64,000 bases of DNA from Candidatus Gastranaerophilales bacterium (lineage in GTDB: Bacteria; Cyanobacteriota; Vampirovibrionia; Gastranaerophilales; Gastranaerophilaceae), in contig CALVEL010000005.1 of assembly GCA_944326565.1 (NCBI GenBank), positions 62,001 to 126,000 of the forward strand. The letters are read 5' to 3'. Position numbers and translations under genes: made by a program. The notes under the pieces are model-generated. The model did no database searches. It was not told the origin of the DNA and saw only the letters and a program-made list of their open reading frames with translations. How positions within the stretch are numbered: position 1 is the first letter of the stretch; each line of letters starts with the position of its first letter. This document shows, one piece after another, positions 27,003-27,864 of the stretch.

Positions 27003-27805
27003 TTACCACGGGTAACTATCAGGAATTTTCCAGCCGTTATGCATTATAAGTGCACCGCAGTAAAAGCCGGAATATTTAGAAGATGTTTTGCTGCAAGCAT
27101 AATTTGCATTTGTTAAAAGGTGCTCATCCGTAAAATGTTCACCCCAAAATTTAATTCGATAGCTTTTTCTATTATTAGGATTAGGGTAGCCGTATATGTC
27201 AAAAACAAAAATATCATACCCGATTTGATTTGGCTTTTGATGTCCGTTTATATCCACAAACATCCATATATAATTAGCCGGCGTATTAGGAAGAAAATAA
27301 ACATACATACCGTCATTTGTTTTTACAAGATAACTTGCTAAAAACAGGCCGCTTGCAGGCTCTCCGCTAAATACCTTTAAAGAATAATTTTCCTTTGTAA
27401 AACAATTTGGAGAATTACATTCTTTTGCATCCTTAAGATAAGGCATGTAATATCTTCTGAAAAAGGTATTCATATTCGCATCATAACCTTGTTTTGGAAA
27501 CTCCCAATCAGCCATTTCGCCGTTTTCGTACTCCGAAAGTCTTGCAGCATTAGTTATTACTGAATAGAACTTTTTAAGCTTCTCAACAGTAACCTTTTTC
27601 TGGTACTTTCCCATAACCGCAGGCAATGTCATGGCGGCAACAATACCGATTATGCCCAAGGTTATCAACACCTCCGCCATTGTAAATGCATGTCTTGTCA
27701 AACAGCCCTTTTCTATACGGCCAGACAATAATTTTAATTTAACCCGGTACAGGAGCTTATTTAACGGGTGCCCCCCCCCCCTGAAAGTTCAGTCATACTC
27801 TGCAT
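27003..27805 (-). CDS. Type IV pilin/pseudopilin, out of frame at a G11 tract (likely phase-variable)
   Basis: The body encodes a class III-signal pseudopilin: basic stretch TRHA, then FTMAEVLITLGIIGIVAAMTLP, a hydrophobic helix, and a ~200-residue globular domain with cysteines typical of secretion/pilus minor pilins. As sequenced, the pilin frame can begin only at a TTG (27728) with no SD. A strong start, ATG at 27803-27805 with AGAAGGAG 6 bases before it, lies upstream but is separated by 11 consecutive G (plus-strand C at 27771-27781); in that frame translation stops at TAA six codons after TCA. Adding one G (or removing two) fuses the ATG to the pilin, giving about 267 residues with a 40-residue leader ending RHA|FT. 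A -10 TATAAT is at 27833-27838. Ends 2 bases from recR. Confidence 0.8.
27771..27781. repeat. Homopolymer tract of 11 C (G11 on the coding strand)
   Basis: Eleven identical G/C bases in very AT-rich DNA, placed within the first codons of the pilin gene, between the Shine-Dalgarno/ATG and the membrane-helix code. Such tracts change length by slipped-strand mispairing and switch translation on or off in other bacteria. Confidence 0.9.
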
Positions 27806-27832
27806 TTCTAGCTCCTTCTGTTTTAACACGTC

Positions 27833-27838
27833 ATTATA
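27833..27838 (-). promoter_or_regulatory. -10 box of the pilin gene
   Basis: TATAAT on the minus strand, about 27 bases upstream of the ATG at 27805 and before the SD. No good -35 was found at 16-18 bases. Confidence 0.5.
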
Positions 27839-27864
27839 ATACCATGATTCCCCTTTTTATGCAA

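Follow-up and report, generated by a model that had tools for sequence, protein, structure and literature searches.

Does a run of 11 G between the sole strong translation start and a type IV pilin-like gene control whether that gene is made, and if so, is the present length of the run an accident of the moment at which the DNA was sequenced? The gene lies on the minus strand of what we call the window, the whole stretch of 64,000 nucleotides analysed here. A sequence-only reading of it had held that the pilin is caught OFF at a contingency tract in a Melainabacteria-like organism, and the host does belong to Gastranaerophilales ('Melainabacteria').

The window locus

Along the minus strand come a Shine-Dalgarno (SD) sequence AAGGAG (27812..27817), 6 nt, then ATG CAG AGT ATG ACT GAA CTT TCA, the 11 G (27771..27781) and CACCCGTTAA. 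The ATG (27805-27803) opens a leader mini-ORF of 14 codons (27761..27805), MQSMTELSGGGGTR plus stop, whose frame after the 11 G reads CACCCG and then TAA (27763-27761), so that a strong SD and ATG with a frame that stops just past the run are indeed what the DNA holds. The tract is the sole run of at least 8 G in the 64-kb window, for which shuffling predicts 0.11 eight-G matches. An 84-nt spacer, HPLNKLLYRVKLKLLSGRIEKGCLTRHA (27687..27770, minus strand), leads from the tract to the mature pilin-like protein of 227 aa plus stop, which begins FTMAEVLITLGIIGIVAAM (27003..27686, minus strand). The pilin frame is without a stop from the tract down to the one at 27003 and differs from the frame of the ATG. 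An intact pilin with an N-methyl motif thus lies out of frame as sequenced, as claimed earlier, and the arithmetic of that claim is correct: 12 G would fuse the ATG to the pilin in 267 codons.

The identity of the protein was judged from its motif and from profiles. It has the prepilin cleavage/methylation motif (G/A, then F-T-x-x-E) and the hydrophobic helix, HAFTMAEVLITLGIIGIVAAM. Its score with TIGR02532 (prepilin cleavage/methylation domain, NCBIfam) is 21.1 bits, above the cut-off of 16.3; it also exceeds the cut-off of Pfam DUF6613 and falls just below that of Pfam N_methyl (19.6 vs 21.2). Assignment to GspG, the major pseudopilin of type II secretion, was rejected (TIGR01710, 20.9 bits vs a cut-off of 88.85). 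The genome encodes a PilB/GspE-type ATPase and two ATPases of PilT size (PF00437, 4 matches above cut-off), along with one match above cut-off to the prepilin peptidase family (PF01478).

Out-of-frame pilins are under purifying selection. In each pair for which it was computed, dN is lower than dS (dN/dS 0.29 for the window pilin and its orthologue L154 of a sister species), and these pilins have therefore been used at some time.

A leader shared by many pilins

The arrangement recurs across the genome of the window, for which the comparison covered every tract locus and most pilins without a tract. In its 1.87 Mb the window pilin has about 80 matches, and runs of 10 G or more number 33; of these, 31 lie in same-strand translated leaders directly 5′ of pilin genes; one of the other two (L074) is 5′ of a pilin-like frame, and the last (L073) is without a clear gene. 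Tract-less pilins mostly have an ordinary short ATG leader, e.g. MKKA/FTMAEV.

Where the spacer between tract and pilin is longer than 60 nt (36 loci, up to 300 nt), none of the 1553 codons of the pilin frame is a stop, and the other frames have 157 and 136 stops. A pilin frame that stays open back to the tract indicates that translation reaches these pilins from the tract. In most short-spacer loci the tract-pilin interval lacks a start codon; in the direct-fusion class (38-nt spacer) there is no in-frame ATG from tract to pilin, and third codon positions vary most. Since the long spacers are open and the direct-fusion class is without an ATG, we take the leader start to be the one that most pilins with a tract normally use. 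Codon-position entropy within the leader ORF gave no coding bias.

Some pilin leaders are very long, up to about 220 codons (L171, L185, L187, L157, L296, L306); they resemble intergenic repeat DNA, and the pilin frame through them is still open.

The commonest leader of the genus is AAGGAGCTGGAAATGCAGACTATGATTGAAATT(N), G10-14, CACCCGAAAATAAGCTCCT. Of about 99 leaders in the genus, nearly all have the same SD as the window locus, and the leader ORF phase, M..GGGGTR[KE] followed by a stop, is conserved genus-wide. The string GGGGGGGGCACCCG is present in 13 genomes of the genus, the window's own included, out of 14 (G005 has none), and in 0 of 45 other genomes sampled from the family, order and class. 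A longer leader pattern was searched in GTDB r220 (one genome per species), where 49 of the 51 stretches matched are titled Gastranaerophilales, Melainabacteria or uncultured bacterium. The relatives pattern HGGGGGGGGNACCCG matched only runs of 8-9 G and was set aside. Viral contigs contain no copy.

Tracts of at least 10 G are present in 183 of 239 Gastranaerophilaceae genomes, with a maximum of 176 in one genome of 2.2 Mb. Genera g7 and g22 also have pilin leaders with ten C (Pro-Pro-Pro; e.g. L251, L270, L278, L309, L311), and in these two genera all 13 of 13 such leaders are in the same phase, like the poly-G leaders there. The G10 tracts of g7 and g22 that appear to be non-coding are mostly poly-C leaders of pilins on the opposite strand. 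As a separate observation, G005, a genus member 99% complete, has no tract of at least 10 G.

Frame bias, tract length and pilin bodies

Among 87 pilin loci of the genus with an SD-supported start, 66 have the pilin offset by one base in a common direction, 12 have it in frame and 9 have it offset the opposite way (p = 4e-16), and the window's own genome gives 23, 5 and 3 in the same order (p = 8e-6); these p values treat loci as independent though copies are related, and the count of distinct leader types, 48, 9 and 8 (p = 4e-11), is fairer. The number of G follows the length of the leader before the tract: a pre-tract length of 2 mod 3 goes with G12 (38 of 41), 0 mod 3 with G11 (11 of 16), and 1 mod 3 with G12 or G13. 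The window locus and L154 are in the minority off-phase.

Other genera have biases of their own. G034 (genus g22) has 31 of its 37 G-tract pilins one base out one way and 5 in frame, with a tract of nearly always exactly 10 G; G022 (g10) has 27 of 36 one base out, in the direction opposite to G034, and 7 in frame. Each well-sampled genus has one preferred off-phase, whose direction is genus-dependent. This difference in direction argues against a systematic homopolymer miscall, which would have to add a surplus G in some genera and drop one in others.

Versions one G apart, ON versus OFF, were found twice, within one genome (L128 with G12, L163 with G11) and between species (L048 with G12, L135 with G13); the other 10 of the 12 recent pairs (4.3% diverged) have equal tract lengths. 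L154, in a 2-kb region 90% identical to the window, has 11 G as the window does. At the level of the family, then, both in-frame and out-of-frame lengths occur in nature, as the 12 of 87 loci in frame in the genus and the one-G pairs show; the window locus itself has one length only, 11 G in two species.

The order SD/ATG, 11 G, pilin is that of a contingency locus, with a repeat between a good start and the gene body. In such a locus length is free and all phases occur; here one off-phase is found in most copies per genus, and the phase bias, with the number of G tracking leader length, rules out simple drifting contingency loci. What survives of the claim that the pilin is OFF by an 11-G contingency tract is the poly-G gate between the sole strong start and the pilin, a design recurrent in dozens of pilins per genome, and the existence of one-G ON/OFF pairs. 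What the data do not support is the notion of a copy simply caught in a random state, given 11 G in L154 also and one off-phase maintained.

In the assembly of a relative, G109 (L389-L408), 18 of 24 N-gaps in 400 kb adjoin G or C runs and several others are within the same leaders. Discordant tract lengths among reads would account for such a pattern; so would polymerase or sequencing stutter.

Leader and tract can stay in place while the pilin behind them is replaced. At conserved sites, both flanks of which are 75-90% identical, related species have the same leader and tract with an unrelated pilin body (L044/L185, L060/L187, L065/L186, L063/L142, L067/L132, L057/L146, L123/L172, L132/L174), and such exchange recurs in genus g10 (site at L297:1-2326). 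The window pilin with its downstream DNA (27003-27760) is 97% identical to L154 and the upstream flank 81%, and the pilin body has therefore seemingly moved; the difference suggests a recent transfer or conversion of this body between the two species.

Explanations and known systems

We lean towards the 11 G being a reading-frame gate in the pilin leader, with DNA-level phase variation of the pilin repertoire that is biased OFF, and consider this somewhat probable. Ribosomes would initiate at the SD-supported ATG of the leader; given the right tract length modulo 3 they would read through into the prepilin, and otherwise they would reach a stop, which most copies have within a few codons. Slipped-strand replication would alter the tract length and make each pilin heritably ON or OFF, the usual state would be OFF by one base, and only a few of the cell's pilins, a set that shifts over time, would be displayed. 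The anatomy, its recurrence, the open pilin frames, the one-G ON/OFF versions and the purifying selection are shown by the analysis; heritable slippage within populations, and the resulting change in pilus composition, we infer. Poly-C leaders behave like poly-G leaders, as a DNA-level process would lead one to expect. Two facts do not fit simple random switching, namely that one off-phase is kept per genus and that the 11 G of the window are found in its orthologue too. The evidence against the gate goes further: free slippage should visit both off-phases, yet one is over-represented, with the number of G compensating for upstream length; few recent pairs differ in length, the tracts of the window and L154 being identical; and a TTG downstream could bypass the gate.

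The phase bias is better explained by the main rival, programmed slippage, where the off-by-one frame would be the working state: some ribosomes or RNA polymerases would slip and produce low, set pilin levels with the DNA unchanged, and the in-frame copies would be constitutive variants. Such a process accords with one off-phase being kept across species and leader lengths, with an ATG frame that in most copies stops soon past the tract, and with the purity of the homopolymer, where other GGN codons would encode glycine just as well. There is a precedent in herpes simplex virus thymidine kinase, in which a run of 7 G that has gained or lost one G makes product all the same, low-level frameshifting on the G run restoring the frame (PMC5009743); that case is unlike the present one in concerning a eukaryotic virus and accidental mutants, whereas the loci described here are usually off-frame in nature. 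Several results nevertheless make programmed slippage a rather unlikely explanation. The direction needed differs by genus (skipping one base in g1 and g10, re-reading one in g7 and g22), the window locus needs a shift opposite to that of most of its genus, and poly-C leaders act the same as poly-G. A programmed ribosomal frameshift would have a conserved direction and signal; direction varies here by genus and locus, neither a shift codon nor a stimulator was found to be conserved, and the stop is preceded by differing codons. Genera and loci of opposite sign weaken the case for a fixed +1 programmed frameshift in particular. We give an equally tentative place to a broader conjecture, by which dozens of pilins per cell would be made only through slippage of ribosome or RNA polymerase on a G or C run, at low, noisy levels, as a family-wide recoding switch with bodies exchanged behind a constant leader.

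The window tract might also be irrelevant, with the pilin starting at a TTG (27701-27699, minus strand; MTRHA/FTMAEV) and the leader ORF at most a regulatory upstream ORF. This TTG is 5 codons 5′ of the mature F and 4 nt after a weak AAGGG (27706-27710), which makes a prepilin leader of normal length, and it is conserved in L154; the sequence-only reading, which allowed the pilin frame no proper start, only a TTG without a ribosome site, put the matter slightly too strongly. A further TTG lies at 27728. Long-spacer loci L042, L050, L066, L070, L071 and L155 likewise have internal ATGs near the pilin with partial SDs. However, the spacer back to the tract is open in the pilin frame at 36 of 36 long-spacer loci, which an internal start would make needless, and such starts are absent from most short-spacer loci; we regard this explanation as improbable.

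That the leader is mainly an RNA element, its SD pairing with AGCTCCT just past the mini-ORF stop (27751..27757, minus strand; the complement of AGGAGCT in the SD region) and mini-ORF translation controlling downstream expression, is very improbable: 7-10 bp of SD/anti-SD pairing are kept in most leaders, own partners beat all 200 swaps and a few loci (L124, L150, L175) have compensating changes, but the minimum-energy fold that includes the pairing is no more stable than shuffles (z = 0.63), the element is genus-specific whereas the poly-G design is family-wide, and the missing pilin start and the open frame are left unexplained. The complementarity, which could sequester the SD, may still add some control. 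A promoter scan gave matches no better than those in shuffles.

A frame gate would have relatives in other bacteria. Translational phase variation by homopolymer tracts, in sets called 'phasomes', is known in Neisseria, Campylobacter and Helicobacter; PMC5953494 and PMC5084427 are papers on the subject. The likeness lies in homopolymers of about 10-13 G or C near the 5′ end of surface-protein genes, in a one-base change that joins or splits start codon and protein, and in many loci per genome. PilC of these systems has a poly-G tract. Unlike them, the present loci gate the pilin subunits themselves, by the dozen in each genome and family-wide in a non-photosynthetic cyanobacterial lineage, with one off-phase strongly preferred and a leader common to many genes. 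Neisseria gonorrhoeae has about 11 scattered phase-variable opa genes (PMC3745409). These too are dispersed paralogues that are switched one by one, each through a translational repeat of its own, and they yield combinatorial surface variants. The opa repeat is CTCTT; the opa product is an outer-membrane protein, whereas the repertoire here is larger and of pilin type. In the pilE/pilS antigenic variation of Neisseria a conserved pilin N-terminus is kept and the variable part exchanged, as here, but in the present loci it is the entire pilin body that differs from species to species at a conserved site, and a tract gates translation.

Homopolymer-gated surface genes are known; the new elements are that dozens of pilin subunits are the target, that the lineage is this one, that the design spans a family, that one off-phase is preferred and that bodies are swapped behind a leader that stays constant. 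The earlier suggestion of novelty for the lineage agrees with a literature search, thin on subscription journals, that found no paper on phase variation in Gastranaerophilales.

If the frame gate is real, these non-photosynthetic relatives of cyanobacteria in the gut carry, as a whole family, a very large homopolymer-gated repertoire of pilin subunits, and the surface fibres on display could be a small set that differs from cell to cell. This would help to explain why about 80 pilin genes are kept in one genome, and it would raise the puzzle of why one off-frame persists so long. Ordinary gene callers would mis-start or mis-place many tract pilins.

A second pilin-like family (xTLGEILISMAIIGALVLILMP) was also seen, at L126, L118, L148, L165 and L074, often near contig ends; the L126 protein was called pilin-like by eye. 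The poly-G leader of this family, MKHRQ...GGGHPYNKLL, is related.
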